DNA of 20,705 nucleotides from a bacterium. Lineage in GTDB: Bacteria > UBA9089 > CG2-30-40-21 > SBAY01. The notes below the pieces were generated by a model, which was not told the origin of the DNA, searched no databases, and saw only the letters and a program-made list of their open reading frames with translations. The stretch covers positions 1 to 20,705 of the forward strand of contig JBFLYA010000052.1 in assembly GCA_040757115.1 (NCBI GenBank). Reading direction: 5' to 3'. How positions within the stretch are numbered: position 1 is the first letter of the stretch; every line of letters starts with the position of its first letter. Below are positions 4,763-16,998 of the stretch, one piece after another. The translations under genes were made by a program, and so were the position numbers.

Positions 4763-5008
4763 GTAACCGTTCAGGTGGTAATTTACCGCAGAGACGCAGA
4801 GAAACAGAGAGGAAAATATCTTTTTTTTCGTGTTTTTCGCGTTTTTCGGTGTTTAAAAAGGCTTAAAAACAGTTAGTCAAAAGTCCGTATTAAAAGATTA
4901 ATAAACAACGAAAGACCCGAAATGCACAAAAAAAAGGAAATTTCTGTCTCTGGTGAATAGATTTTAATTTTTTCTCTGCGTCTCTGTGTCTCTGCGGTGA
5001 ACGGTTAC
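4763..5008. mobile_element. MITE copy 1 (GTAACCGTTCA termini)
   Basis: A 246-bp non-coding element begins GTAACCGTTCA and ends TGAACGGTTAC, a perfect 11-bp terminal inverted repeat. Just inside, 'accgcagagacgcagagaaa' on the left faces 'ctctgcgtctctgtgtctc' on the right, so each arm forms an imperfect stem of about 40-50 bp. The flanks are AAAAATTG (4755-4762) and AAATTG (5009-5014), readable as a target duplication of 8 bp that lost two A, or of 6 bp. Its interior is nearly identical to the copy at 16765-16998 apart from a 12-base deletion there. It contains no open frame of note. GTAA ends with 8-bp duplications are characteristic of IS66 elements, so trans-mobilisation by an IS66-type transposase is inferred. 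Confidence 0.85.
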
Positions 5009-5134: not shown

Positions 5135-5344
5135 ATGAGCACTAAAATAGGTAATCCAGCGGATGTGGAGGGGATGTTTGAGGTAATAAAATTAATAGAG
5201 GAATTACGCGATATATTTCGGCAAACCGCTCCACTCCATATTCTCAATTCTCAACAAAAACAACAGGCAAAACAATTATTATCCACGGCTAAAAATATAC
5301 TGGATAAGGTAGAAAAGTCCCTGTGCGGTTATAGCGATTATTAA
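5135..5344 (+). CDS. Small helical hypothetical protein, 69 residues
   Basis: The only intact plus-strand gene in the window. ATG at 5135 follows 'aaggtgagataaatt', a fair ribosome binding site. The product is charged and helical ('VIKLIEELRDIFRQ', 'QQKQQAKQLLSTAKNILDKVEKSL') with no signal peptide or membrane segment; a short coiled coil or antitoxin-like helical bundle is possible, but no family was recognised. The last six residues (CGYSDY) and the stop are read from the adjacent repeat cassette: a near-identical 'ttatagcgrttattaactgg' recurs at about 5786. So the native C-terminus has probably been replaced. It is read divergently from polA with the MITE between them. A true gene is likely but unproven. 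Confidence 0.5.
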   Translation: MSTKIGNPADVEGMFEVIKLIEELRDIFRQTAPLHILNSQQKQQAKQLLSTAKNILDKVEKSLCGYSDY

Positions 5345-5526
5345 CTGGAAGTCTACATAGGATAATACCCATAAATAAGGCATGAGAATAATCGTTCCGT
5401 TAGGAACATAATATCGGTAGGAATAGATAGACAAATCAATCAGTTCCGTAGGAACGATATATTGGTAGAAAATTTATGGAAAGCCATTTACCGATATATT
5501 GTCCCTATGGGACAATATTTGTATGA
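5336..5526. repeat. Hairpin-plus-tail repeat cassette A
   Basis: This holds three short hairpins: GTTCCGTTAGGAAC (5394-5407) with tail 'ataatatcggtag'; GTTCCGTAGGAAC (5443-5455) with tail 'gatatattggtaga'; and, inverted, ATTGTCCCTATGGGACAAT (5498-5516) preceded by 'taccgatat'. Unit plan: 5-6-bp stem, 3-4-base loop, A/T-rich tail ending in 'ggtag'. Stretches 5336-5420 and 5421-5470 recur almost unchanged at 5796-5876 and 5923-5973. No coding potential is seen. Confidence 0.75.
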
Positions 5527-5536
5527 TATTTATTTC

Positions 5537-5751
5537 GTAACTATTCACCATTCACAATTTCTTCCCTAAATTTCCTTAATAATGGTGAATGGTGAATTGT
5601 CAATTGTGAATTGTGAATTATCACTCTTCACGGTGTCAAGCAAACCTGGCCCAAGAGTTCGATGCACCGCTATAGCGCATCCAATGACTCTATTCGATAA
5701 TTCATCAAATTTCACTTCGTGCTCTCCGTCCCCTTCGTGGTGAATAGTTAC
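5537..5751. mobile_element. MITE with perfect 8-bp target duplication
   Basis: A 215-bp element with a perfect 14-bp terminal inverted repeat, GTAACTATTCACCA (5537-5550) and TGGTGAATAGTTAC (5738-5751). It is flanked by TTTATTTC on both sides (5529-5536 and 5752-5759), a perfect 8-bp target duplication. The outer 11 bases match the same consensus (GTAACYRTTCA) as the 4763-5008 element, but the interior is unrelated: 'gaattgtcaattgtgaattgtgaatt' type runs and a hairpin GATGC..GCTATAGC..GCATC near 5663-5683. No open frame of note. It inserted within the hairpin-repeat array. Confidence 0.88.
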
Positions 5752-5760
5752 TTTATTTCT

Positions 5761-5974
5761 ACCGATATGTTGTCCCTATGGGACATTATAGCGGTTATTA
5801 ACTGGAAGTCTACAGAGGATAATGCCCATAAATAAGGCAGGAGAATAATCGTTCCGTGAGGAACATAATATCGGTAGTCTTACCATGAGAATAATCGTTC
5901 CGTTAGGAACATAATATCGGTAGGAATAGATAGACAAATCAATCAGTTCCGTAGGAACGATATATTGGTAGAAT
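5761..5974. repeat. Hairpin-plus-tail repeat cassette B
   Basis: Second copy of the array, with hairpins TGTCCCTATGGGACA (5771-5785, preceded by 'accgatatgt'), GTTCCGTGAGGAAC (5851-5864), GTTCCGTTAGGAAC (5897-5910) and GTTCCGTAGGAAC (5946-5958), each with a 'tatcggtag' or 'gatatattggtaga' tail. Stretches 5796-5876 and 5923-5973 duplicate cassette A. One extra unit (5877-5922) is inserted relative to A, suggesting growth by unit duplication. Confidence 0.75.
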
Positions 5975-7848: not shown

Positions 7849-8059
7849 GCGACCGTTCAGGTGGTAATTTACCGCAGAGACGCAGAGGAACAGAGAAGAC
7901 ATAGAAATAAAGTAACTATTCAGCCATTGATTAACACGAATTAGCACGGATAAAAAAATAAAATCAGTGTTTCATCTATGTCCATCTGTGGCTGAATAGT
8001 TACCAATAGATTTTAATTTTTTTTCTCTGCGTCTCTGTGTCTCTGCGGTGAACAGTTAC
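7849..8059. mobile_element. MITE copy 3, inserted in the folP 3' end
   Basis: Left end GCGACCGTTCA (two changes from GTAACCGTTCA), right end TGAACAGTTAC (8049-8059), with the family's inner arms 'accgcagagacgcagagga' and 'ctctgcgtctctgtgtctct'. Flanking GAATAATC (7841-7848 and 8060-8067) is an 8-bp target duplication, or 10 bp if GC is counted. The central part of copy 1 is missing and replaced by another element (7912-8003). The right arm encodes the C-terminal tail of FolP; the rest separates folP from pyrD. Confidence 0.85.
7912..8003. mobile_element. 92-bp repeat nested in the MITE
   Basis: A perfect 15-bp terminal inverted repeat, GTAACTATTCAGCCA (7912-7926) and TGGCTGAATAGTTAC (7989-8003), encloses 'ttgattaacacgaattagc' and 'catctatgtccatctgtgg', themselves imperfectly complementary, so the element is one long hairpin. 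The outer 11 bases fit the same GTAACYRTTCA consensus. No target duplication is visible, so it may have been exchanged by recombination rather than by fresh insertion. A remnant of this type ends pyrF. Confidence 0.75.
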
Positions 8060-10268: not shown

Positions 10269-10385
10269 CTATTCCACACGAAAAAAAAGATATTTTCCTC
10301 TCTGCGAACTCTTGCGTCTCTGCGGTAAAGGATTACCTGAACGGTTACGATTTAAGATATAGTCATTCTGGGTCATATAAGTCAT
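10269..10385 (-). pseudogene. Gene start overlapping the MNT stop, destroyed by a MITE end
   Basis: The MNT gene ends ...TTATGA, and the ATG of that ATGA (10385-10383) opens a frame 'MTYMTQNDYILN' which then runs straight into the MITE terminus GTAACCGTTCA (from 10348) and stops at TAG 10269. A 4-bp overlap downstream of a small MNT nucleotidyltransferase is the usual position of a HEPN or DUF86 partner, so this is probably the first dozen codons of such a gene. Too little remains to name the family. Confidence 0.45.
10276..10348. mobile_element. MITE copy 4, one end only
   Basis: Read on the minus strand, GTAACCGTTCAGGTAATCC starts at 10348 and continues with the inner arm 'ccgcagagacgcaagag' and 'ggaaaatatctttttttt' to about 10276, matching the left 75 bp of copies 1 and 2. 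The right half is missing, so the element deleted together with its target or was truncated afterwards. Confidence 0.75.
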
Positions 10386-10663
10386 AATGGCACCCCTTCA
10401 CTTAATGCTATTCGGACGAATGGATTGGATGTATCTTTAGCTATGACAAGGTCAATCTTCTGCTCGCCTAATAATTCATAAAGATTCAGGCGAATTTTTC
10501 TTTTATGCTCATTAGTTAGTTTGTTTGACCAGATAAGGATATCTATATCTCCACCCCTCTGGGTATCATCTACCCGTGAGCCAAAGAGATAGATTTTTGC
10601 CTCCAGGTCTATCTTCATAATGGTAGATTTAATTGCACTTATTTCCTCAGATGATAATCTCAT
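10382..10663 (-). CDS. MNT-type nucleotidyltransferase (MntA-like)
   Basis: A 93-residue minimal nucleotidyltransferase of the DNA polymerase beta fold. It has 'LFGSR' (Gly28-Ser29-Arg30), the metal-binding pair in 'GGDIDIL' (Asp39, Asp41) and the third carboxylate in 'KIDLVI' (Asp71). All catalytic residues are present. Such proteins usually form pairs with HEPN or DUF86 RNases; in MntA/HepT the nucleotidyltransferase AMPylates the toxin. ATG 10663 overlaps the stop of the preceding small ORF (ATGA). An alternative GTG at 10672 has AGGA six bases upstream. Its stop overlaps the next ATG, but that gene is broken by a MITE, leaving an orphan. Confidence 0.88.
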   Translation of the reverse strand: MRLSSEEISAIKSTIMKIDLEAKIYLFGSRVDDTQRGGDIDILIWSNKLTNEHKRKIRLNLYELLGEQKIDLVIAKDTSNPFVRIALSEGVPL

Positions 10664-10752
10664 AAGAAACACTCACTATCCTGCGTCGGCTTACAAAAGG
10701 GAATAACAAACAGTTTGAAATTGCAGGCTAACCACCACTTTGTATCTATCAT
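10660..10752 (-). CDS. 30-codon ORF linking kinase fusion and MNT genes
   Basis: ATG 10752 overlaps the stop of the receiver-kinase gene (ATGA), and its own TGA (10662-10660) overlaps the ATG of the MNT gene (ATGA). The product is 'MIDTKWWLACNFKLFVIPFC' plus ten residues: hydrophobic, with three Cys and no charge pattern typical of a soluble domain. Two precise 4-bp overlaps suggest translational coupling, but in AT-rich DNA a 30-codon frame can arise by chance. It may serve only to pass ribosomes to the MNT gene. Confidence 0.35.
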   Translation of the reverse strand: MIDTKWWLACNFKLFVIPFCKPTQDSECFL

Positions 10753-12353
10753 TTTTTATCCAGTCTTTCGCAGATTAAGGAGCTTGAAAGAAGGGCATGT
10801 CTTAATCGTTCTTTCTTAATATTAGGGTATCTAATCATATTAATTGTATGGTAAAGAAGTCCAATATAGTATTCATAAATGTTGTTGCATGGTTGAACAA
10901 AACTATGTGCCAGATTTCTCAAATCCTGGATAACCGCAAAAGCTTTGTTAAGTTCTTCAATAGGACTTTTAAAACTGTATGGTTCATCAAATTGCTCTGG
11001 ACTAACTAAAGATTTTTCAAATTCATATAGGGTTTCTATATTGCTTGTTTCAAGGTAGTTAAATTTAATGTCAGCCTCTAATTCTACAAAGTCTCTTAAG
11101 ATGTGTCCATAACCCGTTCTGAAAAAATCAATCAACCATGTATGCCCATCCTCATCAACCAGGATATTCTTTCCATTCAAATCACCGTGGGTACAACAGC
11201 GATAAGTAGGAAAAGAAAAAAGTTTATCCTTTAACCAAACAACCGGGTTAATAAAATCTTTTTCTAAACCCGAAAAGTTAATCAGATGTTTTCCTTTATA
11301 CTCTGAGAATATCTTTTTAAGGGCGTCGTCTAAGTCTTTCTGGTCACATCCTAATTGTTTTTTATATGACTCCTTAAGATTCAAATCTTGCGGATTACCT
11401 TTATTGCGATACCACAATTCACAAGTCTCTTTAAAAAGATCCTTCAAGACCCGGGTAATATTCACTTTATCGTTTTTACCATAGTATGTTCTAAAATCAC
11501 AAATATCTTTGAGGGTTCTACCAACAAGGGTATATCCTATTCCACCAAAATTTTGGGTATAAACAACTTCTCCTCTCTTAGTGCATCGCCGGGTCAGATA
11601 TGGTGCTACATAGTTGTCATAGTTTCTCTCTTCTGTCTCGATTGCCTTCCGTCCTCCAAATTTAACCACAAGAGGAGCACCTACTCCCTGGTCACTCCGA
11701 CCTGGTGTTACCCAAACTACCCCTGTTCCACTGTAGCCCTTTGATGATAGAACAGAGATGATAATCTTATGTTCTTTATAAAACAGCCTTTTAAATATTT
11801 CTCCTAACTCTCTACTCATCCTCTTTTTTTCTTCCTCAGAGTCTTTCCCTTTGATAAAAATTTCCTCCAGCAAAAATTCAAAAGCCTTTTCATCTTCTAA
11901 ATTGGTAATAGTTACACCTGAAGAAAGTTTCTCTTCCAACCTGACTTTAAGGTTAAAATTAATCTTTATCACCTTATTGAAAGCATCTTCGATTGTCTCT
12001 ATCAAACTTGAAGGTGGGTCCTTTTTTGAAATATAATCAAATGCAATTCCTCCAAAACGAGGACTTCTTGCCATTCGCCCTGTTTCATAACTATCAAATC
12101 CTGTCAAGATAATCTTTGGTATAATTGAATCAATTCTCTTTGCCAACTCTATTCCGCTAGTGTCTTTATCATCATTATGGTCGATGAGTTTTAAATCAAT
12201 TACTGCTAAATGAACCCGTTCCTTTTTTAACAATTCCTTTGCCTCATCTGGGCTCCCCGCTGAAAAAACCATATATCCTTGTTGTTCTAAATTAAACTTC
12301 CACGCATCCAATTCTGAAGATTCATTATCAACTAATAAAATTCTTTTTTCCAT
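10749..12353 (-). CDS. Response regulator receiver fused to a phosphotransferase/kinase-like domain
   Basis: 534 residues. 1-125 is a receiver: acidic site 'VDNE' (Asp9; the usual second Asp is Asn10, Glu11 kept), phospho-acceptor Asp53 ('VIDL'), Thr84 ('ILTG'), Lys110 ('ISKK'). About 140-200 is a charged helical linker. About 200-530 is a kinase fold of the aminoglycoside/choline phosphotransferase type: 'PLVVKFGG' with ATP Lys231, Glu-rich 'ETEERNYDNYV' (239-249), catalytic loop 'THGDLNGKNILVD' (Asp391, Asn396) and metal-binding 'WLIDFFRTGYGH' (Asp409). This resembles, from memory, the TCAD9-type kinase-like domain described in NTP-dependent conflict systems; that assignment is unverified. 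There is no DNA-binding domain, so the output is predicted phosphotransfer to an unknown substrate. The ribosome binding site AAGGAGGG lies seven bases before ATG 12353. It follows the lone receiver by 12 bases and overlaps the next ORF by 4. Confidence 0.85.
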   Translation of the reverse strand: MEKRILLVDNESSELDAWKFNLEQQGYMVFSAGSPDEAKELLKKERVHLAVIDLKLIDHNDDKDTSGIELAKRIDSIIPKIILTGFDSYETGRMARSPRFGGIAFDYISKKDPPSSLIETIEDAFNKVIKINFNLKVRLEEKLSSGVTITNLEDEKAFEFLLEEIFIKGKDSEEEKKRMSRELGEIFKRLFYKEHKIIISVLSSKGYSGTGVVWVTPGRSDQGVGAPLVVKFGGRKAIETEERNYDNYVAPYLTRRCTKRGEVVYTQNFGGIGYTLVGRTLKDICDFRTYYGKNDKVNITRVLKDLFKETCELWYRNKGNPQDLNLKESYKKQLGCDQKDLDDALKKIFSEYKGKHLINFSGLEKDFINPVVWLKDKLFSFPTYRCCTHGDLNGKNILVDEDGHTWLIDFFRTGYGHILRDFVELEADIKFNYLETSNIETLYEFEKSLVSPEQFDEPYSFKSPIEELNKAFAVIQDLRNLAHSFVQPCNNIYEYYIGLLYHTINMIRYPNIKKERLRHALLSSSLICERLDKK

Positions 12354-12365
12354 ACTTATCCCTCC

Positions 12366-12755
12366 TTATTTATGAGCCAGAGAAGGTTTTATTTTAAGCC
12401 CTTCTTGTATAGTTTTTAGCAATTTACTCTCATCAAACGATTTGCTCAGATAGTCAATAGCCCCTATTCTAAAGATATCTCTTCCTTCTTTCCATGAAGG
12501 AGAAGCCGAGACAACAACTACTCGTTCCTCCGGGTGTTTTTCTAAAATTCGCCTGAGAGAGACTGTTCCGTCTGGACCTGAAACATAAAAATCTAAAAAT
12601 ACTAAACCATATTTTTGAGAATCTAATTTTTTTAGAGCTTCATCTTCATTATGAGCTATATCCAATTTGTAACCGTGGGTAGAAAGCATCTTTTTGAAAA
12701 ATTCTGACCACCAGGGTTTATCATCTATGAGTAAAATTCTTGCAATCCTTTTCAT
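12366..12755 (-). CDS. Stand-alone response regulator receiver
   Basis: 129 residues, a single CheY-like domain with no output part: acidic pair in 'LLIDDKP', acceptor Asp in 'LVFLDFYVSGPDG', Ser in 'VVVSAS', Lys in 'DYLSKSF'. It probably shuttles phosphate in a relay or competes with the fused receiver for the kinase. The frame opens at ATG 12761, which overlaps the histidine kinase stop (ATGA). However, AGGAG abuts that codon, whereas it stands six bases before ATG 12755, so the second ATG ('MKRIARILLID') is preferred. Loss of two residues does not affect the fold. Confidence 0.92.
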   Translation of the reverse strand: MKRIARILLIDDKPWWSEFFKKMLSTHGYKLDIAHNEDEALKKLDSQKYGLVFLDFYVSGPDGTVSLRRILEKHPEERVVVVSASPSWKEGRDIFRIGAIDYLSKSFDESKLLKTIQEGLKIKPSLAHK

Positions 12756-12757
12756 CT

Positions 12758-14947
12758 TCATCTCCTTTTGATAGGCAAGTAGAGGGTAAATGTTGTTCCT
12801 TTTGACCCTGTTGATGTTAACTTTATATTGCCTCCATATTTTAAAAGGATGGTCTTTACCAACAGTAAGCCAACACCATTTCCTTTTGCTCCTCTGACTT
12901 GGTTTTTAAAAAGTTGAGATTTAATCTTTTCTGGTATCCCACCGCCTGTATCACTAACTTCTATTAAAATTTCACCTTTTTCTTCTTTACAAATAATAGT
13001 TAATTTTCCTTTCTCTGGCATTGCCCTCAGGGCATTTTTGATTATGTGCTCAAAGGCAATTGTCAACCAGGTATTACTGGCAATTATACGAGTCAATTCT
13101 TTTGATGGCTTTGGACGATTGACTTTAATCTTCAGCGGGGGATTGCATTTCTTAATTACAGCATCAAATATCTCATCAATAGAAACTTCTTCTTCTACAT
13201 CCTCAGATGGTAGATCAGGTGCTATCTTTATTATTGCTTCAGCATCCTCATCTATTCTCTTAAGTCTGTCAAGGAGAACCTCTTTCGAAAGAGCAAATTT
13301 TTTTTCAAGTGTATATACATTTGTCCTTATGGCATTAACCTTTTGAGTTATATCGTGCATCCAACTTGCCTTTACAATACCCAACCAGGCAAGGGTATTA
13401 GCTGCTGAAAGTTGGTCTTGAGCCTCCTGTAGTTCTTGATACTGTCTTGCCTTTTGGATAGCAATTGATGCCTGACCTGATAGTAACTCAATAAATTTCA
13501 CATTATCTTCATCAAAGGCATCTAAAATAGAATGTTCGAAATTAAAAACCCCTATTAATTCTCTTTCTTTATTTAGAATAGGAACTGCTATCTCAGATTT
13601 AGTAGAAGGATTAAAGGAGAGATACCGTCGGTCTTTATTTACATCGGGAATTCTCATAGTCTTTTTCTCCTTTGCTGCATAGCCAACAATTCCCTCTCCA
13701 ATCTTTATTGGATTCCAAGATTTTTCTGTTTCTAAACCTCGCCTAACTTTGGCTACTAATAATTCCCTCTCCTCAAGCAACCTTGCACTTGCTGAATGAG
13801 CACCCGTCTTTTCTAACCCCTTATCTAATATTAACCCTAATATTTCCTTTATATCTAAAGTTGAATTGATTACTTTCCCAATTTCATAAATTGCATTTTG
13901 AATCTCAAATTGCTCAGCATTGTGAATAGCAATTACTGCTTGTCGAGAAAGAGATTCAATCAAACGTTTATCATCTTCATCAAAGGCACTAACTTTTGGA
14001 CTCTCAAGATTAAATATTCCTATCAATTTCTTCTCATCACCCAGTAATAAGGGCACGGCCAATTCTGATCTTACCCCTGGAATCATTTCTATATACCATT
14101 CCTTCCACCTTTCTTCTGTAACATCTCGTATTAAAAGAGATTTCTTTTCTTTTGCAACTAAACCAGTAATGCCTATCTCACCAATCTTTGCTCTTTTATC
14201 CTTTCTCTCTTCAGGTACTCCAATACTTTGCTTGATAACTAACTCTCCTGTAGATTTATCTATAGACTGAATCATAGCATAAATTTTTACATCTTTATGT
14301 CTTTTTGCAATTAGCTCAACCCCTTTATTCAAAATTAGTTCCAATACCTTCTCAAGATTTAATACAGAACTAATAATTTCGTCAATGTGTTGTAATGCCT
14401 CAAGTTCCTTAACTCTCTCACTCAATTTTTTATCTGTTTGGTCAAATAGTCTTGCATTATTAATGTCTATTGCAGAAAAATCTGCTAAAGCCTCAAGGAG
14501 TTTTTGATTATTCTCATCAAAAGCACCAATATTCGGGCTTTCAACATTAAGCACACCTATTAATTTATCTTGAAATATCATTGGGACGGCTAACTCTGAT
14601 TTCATATTGGGAAAGACCTCTATGTAGCCTGAATCTTTAGCCGTTACATCAGAAACCAGAATCGTTTTTTTCTCTTTGGCTGCCCTACCAGTAATCCCCT
14701 CTCCAATCTTCTGAGGCGGTGTTTTTACTCCTTCTGGAATAATTACATTATAGGTTAATTCAGTCTTCTCTTCATTCAACATCCCTAAGGTTCCATATTT
14801 AGAATCTGTAAGTTCTAATGCCTTTTGAAGGATAAGTTTTAGAACTTCTTCCAACTTGAGTTCAGAGGTCAATATCTTTCCTATCTCATAGAGAGTTTCA
14901 ATTTCTTGAACCCTTCGGTTAAGTTGAGTTTGACTTTTCTCTGTCAT
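12758..14947 (-). CDS. Triple-GAF soluble sensor histidine kinase
   Basis: 729 residues, no membrane segment. A short coiled coil ('QLNRRVQEIETLYEIG') leads into three GAF domains of one design (about 30-165, 190-345, 355-500). Each has 'IGEGITGxxAKEKKxxxIxDV', 'SELAVPL' and 'LIGVxNxESPxxxAFDExxxxLIE'. The kinase core has phospho-acceptor His531 in 'SWMHDITQKVNAI', N-box 'FEHIIKNALRAMP' (Glu633, Asn638), G1 'DTGGGIP' and G2 'GNGVGLLLVKTI'. GAF domains bind small ligands, haem or cyclic nucleotides; no ligand can be read here. The frame extends 27 codons upstream to 15028 through an inserted repeat. ATG 14947 has AGGAG seven to eight bases upstream and opens directly into the conserved coiled coil. 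It is the first main gene of the signalling operon. Confidence 0.95.
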   Translation of the reverse strand: MTEKSQTQLNRRVQEIETLYEIGKILTSELKLEEVLKLILQKALELTDSKYGTLGMLNEEKTELTYNVIIPEGVKTPPQKIGEGITGRAAKEKKTILVSDVTAKDSGYIEVFPNMKSELAVPMIFQDKLIGVLNVESPNIGAFDENNQKLLEALADFSAIDINNARLFDQTDKKLSERVKELEALQHIDEIISSVLNLEKVLELILNKGVELIAKRHKDVKIYAMIQSIDKSTGELVIKQSIGVPEERKDKRAKIGEIGITGLVAKEKKSLLIRDVTEERWKEWYIEMIPGVRSELAVPLLLGDEKKLIGIFNLESPKVSAFDEDDKRLIESLSRQAVIAIHNAEQFEIQNAIYEIGKVINSTLDIKEILGLILDKGLEKTGAHSASARLLEERELLVAKVRRGLETEKSWNPIKIGEGIVGYAAKEKKTMRIPDVNKDRRYLSFNPSTKSEIAVPILNKERELIGVFNFEHSILDAFDEDNVKFIELLSGQASIAIQKARQYQELQEAQDQLSAANTLAWLGIVKASWMHDITQKVNAIRTNVYTLEKKFALSKEVLLDRLKRIDEDAEAIIKIAPDLPSEDVEEEVSIDEIFDAVIKKCNPPLKIKVNRPKPSKELTRIIASNTWLTIAFEHIIKNALRAMPEKGKLTIICKEEKGEILIEVSDTGGGIPEKIKSQLFKNQVRGAKGNGVGLLLVKTILLKYGGNIKLTSTGSKGTTFTLYLPIKRR

Positions 14948-14951
14948 CCTT

Positions 14952-15099
14952 GTTCTCCTGAAAATAGGAAGTAGAGAGTAGAAAGTAAAGAAAACATCAC
15001 TCCTCACGCTTATCTCCCTATCTCCCACCTTCTATCTCCTACCTACTATTTTCATCCTCATTTGTGAGCCAACGGTTCATGGCCGTTCTCCTGAAAATA
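14952..15099. repeat. 118-bp insertion bounded by a 15-bp direct repeat
   Basis: GTTCTCCTGAAAATA occurs at 14952-14966 and again at 15085-15099, enclosing a 118-bp low-complexity stretch rich in 'gtagagagtagaaag' and 'tatctcccacctt' runs. The repeat contains the Shine-Dalgarno sequence of the histidine kinase gene. It is either a long target duplication or a duplication of the promoter-proximal leader. No terminal inverted repeat is visible. Confidence 0.7.
15039..15080 (-). CDS. Leader peptide candidate upstream of the histidine kinase
   Basis: The upstream copy of the duplicated ribosome binding site (CAGGAGAACGGCC) is followed by ATG 15080 and 13 codons, 'MNRWLTNEDENSR', ending at TAG 15039. 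Ribosomes loading at the first site of the transcript would translate it and stop about 90 bases before the kinase start. It may be an accident of the 118-bp insertion rather than a selected leader. Confidence 0.3.
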   Translation of the reverse strand: MNRWLTNEDENSR

Positions 15100-15127
15100 A
15101 TATATCAATAAAATAAAAAAAAGTCAA
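15099..15127 (-). promoter_or_regulatory. Promoter of the histidine kinase operon
   Basis: TTGACT (15127-15122), exactly 17 bases, then TATATT (15104-15099): a near-consensus sigma-70 promoter. The -35 box overlaps the gatA stop codon (TGA 15126-15124). The start point should be near 15092, inside the upstream copy of the 15-bp repeat. Before the insertion, the kinase ATG would have been only about 12-15 bases from the start point. Confidence 0.75.
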
Positions 15128-16764: not shown

Positions 16765-16998
16765 GTAACCGTTCAGGTAATCCTTTACCGCAGAGACGCA
16801 GAGAAACAGAGAGGAAAATATCTTTTTTTCGCGTTTTTCGGTGTTTAAAAAGGCTTAAAAACAGTTAGTCGAAAATAAATATTAAAAGATTAATAAACAA
16901 CGAAAGACCCGAAATGCACAAAAAAGGAAATTTCTGTCTCTGGTGAATAGATTTTAATTTTTTCTCTGCGTCTCTGTGTCTGTGCGGTGAACGGTTAC
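16765..16998. mobile_element. MITE copy 2
   Basis: A 234-bp element, GTAACCGTTCA (16765-16775) to TGAACGGTTAC (16988-16998), with a body almost identical to copy 1 (4763-5008), including the run at 16845-16875 about 'aaaaaggcttaaaaacag'. It lacks 12 bases of the 'ttcgtgtttttcgcg' tract and has a few substitutions. No target duplication is visible (AAGAAAAT left, CAATATTA right), so it probably recombined after insertion. Its right end is 5 bases from the yifB stop codon. Confidence 0.85.

Follow-up and report, generated by a model that had tools for sequence, protein, structure and literature searches.

A putative two-component switch with a TCAD9 kinase domain as its output

Layout of the locus

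The window analyzed here comprises 20,705 nt, positions 1 to 20,705 of contig JBFLYA010000052.1 (GenBank assembly GCA_040757115.1), from a bacterium of the GTDB lineage UBA9089; CG2-30-40-21; SBAY01. Open reading frames and Pfam matches on the minus strand at 10269-15127 place a histidine kinase (HK) gene, a lone receiver (REC) gene and a gene for a receiver fused to a TCAD9 domain in this order (Table 1), the same three proteins that a sequence-only reading of this DNA had described as an HK, a lone receiver and a receiver joined to an APH-like domain. The neighbors of the trio in the window are housekeeping genes (polA, pyrF, pyrD, folP, gatA, a comM-like gene and rnhB), and we found no defense island or mobility gene around it there. 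By Pfam search, neither the trio nor its neighbors in the window include a vWA, MoxR or STAND gene, and PADLOC returned weak, generic matches with no Detocs model among them.

Table 1. Features of the trio and the adjoining DNA (window coordinates)
Feature	Coordinates	Strand	Evidence and remarks
Putative promoter of the trio, TTGACT-17-TATATT	15099..15127	-	Consensus scan
HK, predicted cytosolic sensor	12758..15028	-	Pfam: 3 x GAF and HATPase_c; DHp with His558
Lone REC	12366..12761	-	Pfam Response_reg 1.9e-19; D57 phospho-acceptor; IDxKPWW motif invariant
REC-TCAD9 fusion	10749..12353	-	Pfam TCAD9 8.6e-38, Response_reg 1.4e-8, APH 1.3e-5
30-codon ORF, probably no gene	10660..10752	-	4-bp overlap; G001 DNA open for only 20 codons, then diverges
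MNT (MntA-like) nucleotidyltransferase, orphan	10382..10672	-	NCBIfam MntA 1.3e-8, below the model's cut-off
38-aa ORF, no gene	10269..10385	-	Mostly dispersed repeat, family D4/D6, at expected HEPN start
Diverged allelic block: HK GAF3 and catalytic core, lone REC, REC, TCAD9 N-lobe	11200..13800	-	Nucleotide and dS profiles

The residues expected of a two-component system are present: a phosphorylatable His in the HK, and an acceptor Asp, a Thr/Ser and a Lys in the receivers. The HK keeps intact N and G boxes and has its histidine within an H-box; its His and ATP-site motifs align across all 10 loci described below. The lone REC, whose gene overlaps that of the HK by 4 bp, has no output domain, contains D13, D57, S85 and K107, and is 67-71% identical to its counterparts in genomes G017 and G001. 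The fusion gene begins 12 nt further on and encodes a receiver (residues ~1-126, with D9, D53, T84 and K110) followed by a kinase domain (residues ~140-534).

The putative promoter named in the sequence-only reading is the best match of the region in a consensus scan, with a TG preceding the -10 box; its sequence is identical in G001, and by eye the diverged G017 has TTGATT-18-TATACT at the same position. Promoter-like sites in the region are, however, no more numerous than chance predicts (15 found, 16.4 expected). The HK likely starts at the ATG at 14944, which has a AGGAGAACAAGG ribosome site, and not at the GTG at 15028, because an insertion with duplicated ATTTTCAGGAGAAC parts this ATG from the promoter-like site, which lies directly upstream in G001. 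The insertion itself (window 14966-15088, ~122 nt relative to G001, between promoter and HK start) is flanked by the duplicated ATTTTCAGGAGAAC, which contains the ribosome site, and looks like a small element with a target duplication.

Conservation, pairing and exchange of the three genes

The HK-REC-REC-TCAD9 order recurs directly after gatA in G001, of the same genus, and in G017 (locus L009), of another family (MAG UBA9088), where identity to the window proteins is 68% for the REC, 51-66% for HK segments and 65% for the fusion. The HK has three GAF domains in G001 and one in G017. This order is conserved beyond chance; the 30-codon ORF and the MNT gene that follow it in the window are not. 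TCAD9 scores above the cut-off in 3 of the 19 genomes of the window's phylum, and the gatA neighborhoods inspected in the phylum's other genomes hold no intact trio. In genome G010 a degraded HK-REC remnant lies ~6 kb from gatA, where the contig ends. The remnant (L129:1-566, on the contig that bears gatA) consists of a decayed HK with its middle deleted and a truncated REC, both of the same subfamily.

Of 386 genomes spread across the domain, 11 carry TCAD9 above the cut-off; in the phylum of G078, a set of 400 genomes gave 15. Seven REC-TCAD9 loci were opened in this second phylum (L166, L170, L172, L173, L174, L177 and L178), and each has a multi-GAF HK gene on the same strand directly before the fusion gene, overlapping it or less than 60 nt away; L177 is apparently frame-shifted and L178 truncated. 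Counting the three in the window's phylum, all 10 loci inspected across the two phyla have an HK alongside the fusion, which bears out this part of the gene neighborhood proposed in the sequence-only reading. REC genes commonly adjoin HK genes in any case. At every second-phylum locus the HK His and the Asp, Thr/Ser and Lys of the receiver can be aligned; the RECs of L172 and L173 score under the applied Pfam threshold and are assigned by this alignment. The HK cores there are only ~19-30% identical to the window HK, no closer than generic HKs. In a tree of 17 sequences the REC-fused TCAD9 domains group together on the same side of a branch (79/94), and the window clade adjoins G782/G689 (88/91), with moderate support.

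The two receivers that follow one HK could be taken as a true phosphorelay running from the HK through the lone REC to the fusion. We consider this improbable, as REC-to-REC phosphotransfer requires an HPt or DHp intermediate and no HPt is encoded in the block. Nor is a second REC universal, as L166 and L170 of the second phylum lack one. A separate lone REC gene is absent in that phylum, and two of its seven HKs carry an N-terminal REC.

Comparison of the window with its congener G001 (locus L038) revealed a diverged 2.6-kb block with sharp edges and flanks that are 94-98% identical. Values of dS are ~0-0.3 in gatA and the N-terminal part of the HK and 0 in the final 114 codons of the fusion gene, compared to 0.4-2.0 within the block (~11.2-13.8 kb). 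Over N-lobe codons 181-300, dN is 0.06-0.14 between G001 and G017 versus 0.30-0.42 between G001 and the window. These profiles indicate that one contiguous allele was replaced, with all phosphotransfer partners included, and exchange of the HK core, both receivers and the kinase N-lobe as a unit argues that the partners work together. Allele replacement is usual for systems under conflict but no proof of one, and the mosaic is less probably an artefact of chimeric MAG assembly.

The kinase domain and the proposed switch

TCAD9, a ternary complex-associated domain, has been linked to vWA-MoxR-VMAP systems (PMC10910872), and Kaur et al. (2020, PMC7159879) assign active APH-like kinases an effector role in ternary conflict systems. 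Profile search of the window fusion returned this kinase family: TCAD9 (PF19974) reaches 131 bits, where the cut-off is 40, and APH reaches 25.5 (cut-off 23.2). Catalytic residues K231, H389-G390-D391, N396 and D409 are exactly as listed in the sequence-only reading, which had called Lys231, the HGD391LNGKN396 loop and Asp409 intact. Across 17 TCAD9 domains from several phyla, H389, G390, D391, N396, D409 and D421 (window numbering) show no variation, and K231 and E241 almost none; the sole row lacking the Lys column was clipped during extraction. Against solved structures, the TCAD9 profile best matches RIO2 kinases (7.8e-5), followed by APH (0.0017) and S/T kinases. Based on the conserved catalytic residues and these structure matches, the domain is likely an active kinase; the profile matches favor neither a protein nor a small molecule as its predicted substrate. 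An AlphaFold model of the fusion, computed from two sequences only, has a pLDDT of 35, too low for the model to be informative.

Alternatively, TCAD9 could be a pseudokinase or nucleotide-binding scaffold whose assembly is controlled by the REC, since most S/T/Y kinase domains of ternary systems are disrupted (Kaur et al., PMC7159879). The same study, however, sets the APH-type domain apart as an active one, and the window protein, like essentially all of the 17 sequences, keeps the Lys, the HGDxxxxN loop and the Asp that binds metal, so we regard this possibility as unlikely.

Elsewhere TCAD9 is fused to STAS (L070-L073), TPR (L074, L075) and Clp_N (L167) domains, heads nSTAND6-TPR (L168) and NB-ARC-TPR (L175) receptors, and has AAA/STAND genes beside it at L068 and L173. 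This variety of partners indicates that TCAD9 is a portable output domain, which its domain architectures place under phospho-switches of various kinds as well as under STAND receptors. Among individual loci, L174:4559-7087 encodes a protein that joins REC, TCAD9 and a caspase (Peptidase_C14); its gene lies behind that of a 7-GAF HK, and an AAA/STAND gene adjoins it. At L069:8401-10752, an isochorismatase, TCAD9 and a DSP-type phosphatase are combined in one protein, a kinase with an opposing phosphatase, next to genes for a Clp-type ATPase and an aldehyde dehydrogenase. A Cache-HAMP-SpoIIE-TCAD9 protein (L179:4539-7286), like the STAS-TCAD9 fusions, ties the domain to partner-switching phosphatase/STAS modules.

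We favor, as the probable reading of these sequences, a cytosolic two-component switch that gates a TCAD9 kinase effector and does not involve the MNT. A phosphotransfer unit with a kinase as output, as the earlier reading had proposed, fits both the TCAD9 profile match and the recurrent pairing of HK and fusion. The GAF-bearing HK would sense an intracellular signal, autophosphorylate on His558 and pass the phosphate to D53 of the fusion, a transfer we infer from the intact residues and the conserved HK/fusion pairing. Phosphorylation of D53 would then switch on or release the APH/RIO-like kinase domain with its complete active site, while the lone REC may compete for phosphate as a buffer or branch, like DtcB of Detocs. 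The kinase would most likely phosphorylate a cellular component and thereby halt or reprogram the cell under stress or attack; both the substrate and a role in conflict, which we consider plausible, are suggested by the other TCAD9 partners.

A serious rival, to which we give somewhat less than even chances, is that the three genes serve ordinary stress or metabolic signaling without a role in conflict, with TCAD9 acting non-toxically, either as a protein kinase regulated within a partner-switch-like network or as a metabolite modifier. The fusions to STAS, Cache-HAMP-SpoIIE and the DSP phosphatase suggest reversible protein-phosphorylation signaling, the best structure matches are RIO2 protein kinases, and the neighborhood is one of housekeeping genes. 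Against it stand the fusions to caspase and NB-ARC/STAND-TPR receptors and the patchy distribution within the phylum combined with allelic replacement.

Detocs comprises the HK DtcA, the buffer receiver DtcB and the response regulator DtcC with an enzymatic effector (PMC11728103, PMC11249213). The trios of the window, G001 and G017 share this plan of three genes for an HK, a lone REC and a REC-effector, a likeness of described plan and domain family. The DtcA sensor bears TPRs, whereas the trio's sensor has GAF domains only; its effector is a TCAD9 kinase in place of the ATP-cleaving PNP of the best-described Detocs, and it lies outside a defense island. Because sensor and effector differ and Detocs was compared by description only, we file the trio as a two-component system with a TCAD9 output, not as Detocs. 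Our most tentative extension, rather doubtful at present, is that such loci represent widespread Detocs-like defensive systems, in which an HK gates TCAD9, sometimes fused to a caspase, and shuts down the cell by phosphorylating an essential target, a form of kinase-on-kinase immunity.

The window TCAD9 resembles the TCAD9/APH-like effectors of ternary and STAND systems in scoring above the family cut-off, in its intact kinase motifs and in the fusions of its family to STAND/NB-ARC and caspase domains. It differs in being apparently controlled by a REC and an HK of its own and in having no adjacent vWA-MoxR or STAND gene, and the trio does not belong to a vWA-MoxR/STAND ternary system, a context of the family that is not part of the profile definition. 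Among vWA-associated effectors, Kaur et al. detected no HK domains and REC only sporadically (PMC7159879). As in response regulators with GGDEF, PP2C, CheB or other enzymatic outputs, a REC would gate an enzyme; the difference is that the enzyme here is an APH/RIO-like kinase. The literature searched, whose scope left out most subscription papers, contains no published description of a REC-APH/TCAD9 protein, and relatives of the fusion were absent from the viral contigs and from the plasmids searched.

TCAD9 is a catalogued, uncharacterized kinase domain, and its own HK and receiver at this locus provide an experimental handle: phosphomimetic and phosphodead variants of D53, together with a known upstream kinase, could switch TCAD9 on and reveal its substrate. 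If the kinase proves toxic or protective, it would broaden the Detocs principle of HK, buffer REC and REC-effector, in two phyla, to include a kinase as effector.

The MNT gene and the repeats

The sequence-only reading had also suggested that the MNT step may be part of the same stress or defense response, a proposal the comparison contradicts. Its tight spacing and 4-bp overlaps exist in the window, but the 30-codon ORF and MNT gene are not conserved with the trio: MNT is absent beside the trio in G001 and L009/G017, the 30-codon ORF is absent in L009, and the DNA after the fusion gene in G017 holds a DUF2723-like gene. MNT homologues in the phylum (G011, G002 and G001 C11) are followed by a HEPN gene with a 4-bp overlap, at which HEPN starts in L077, L078 and L081. 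In the window the HEPN start runs at once into a dispersed repeat, and only the 38-aa ORF is found in place of an adjacent HEPN. Because the repeat directly follows this start, the window MNT is an orphan remnant whose HEPN was lost to the repeat.

MNT was accordingly rejected as a component of the system. A four- or five-gene system that includes the MNT and the 30-codon ORF, for which the close spacing and overlap in the window speak, is very improbable given the other trios, the HEPN pairing of the MNT relatives and the replacement of the window HEPN by a repeat. By sequence the window MNT is of the kind found in type VII MNT/HEPN toxin-antitoxin systems, and its relatives in the phylum pair with HEPN; it differs in lacking a HEPN, and it is unconnected to the HK trio.

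Copies of the dispersed repeat, GTAACCGTTCAGGTAATCCTTTACCGCAGAGACGC, lie at 4763-4859, 7852-7899, 10269-10345 (minus strand) and 16765-16861, several of them between housekeeping genes. A gene-free stretch at 5329-5973 of the window contains long, near-perfect direct repeats of 92 nt and 90 nt (95-100%) and small palindromes.
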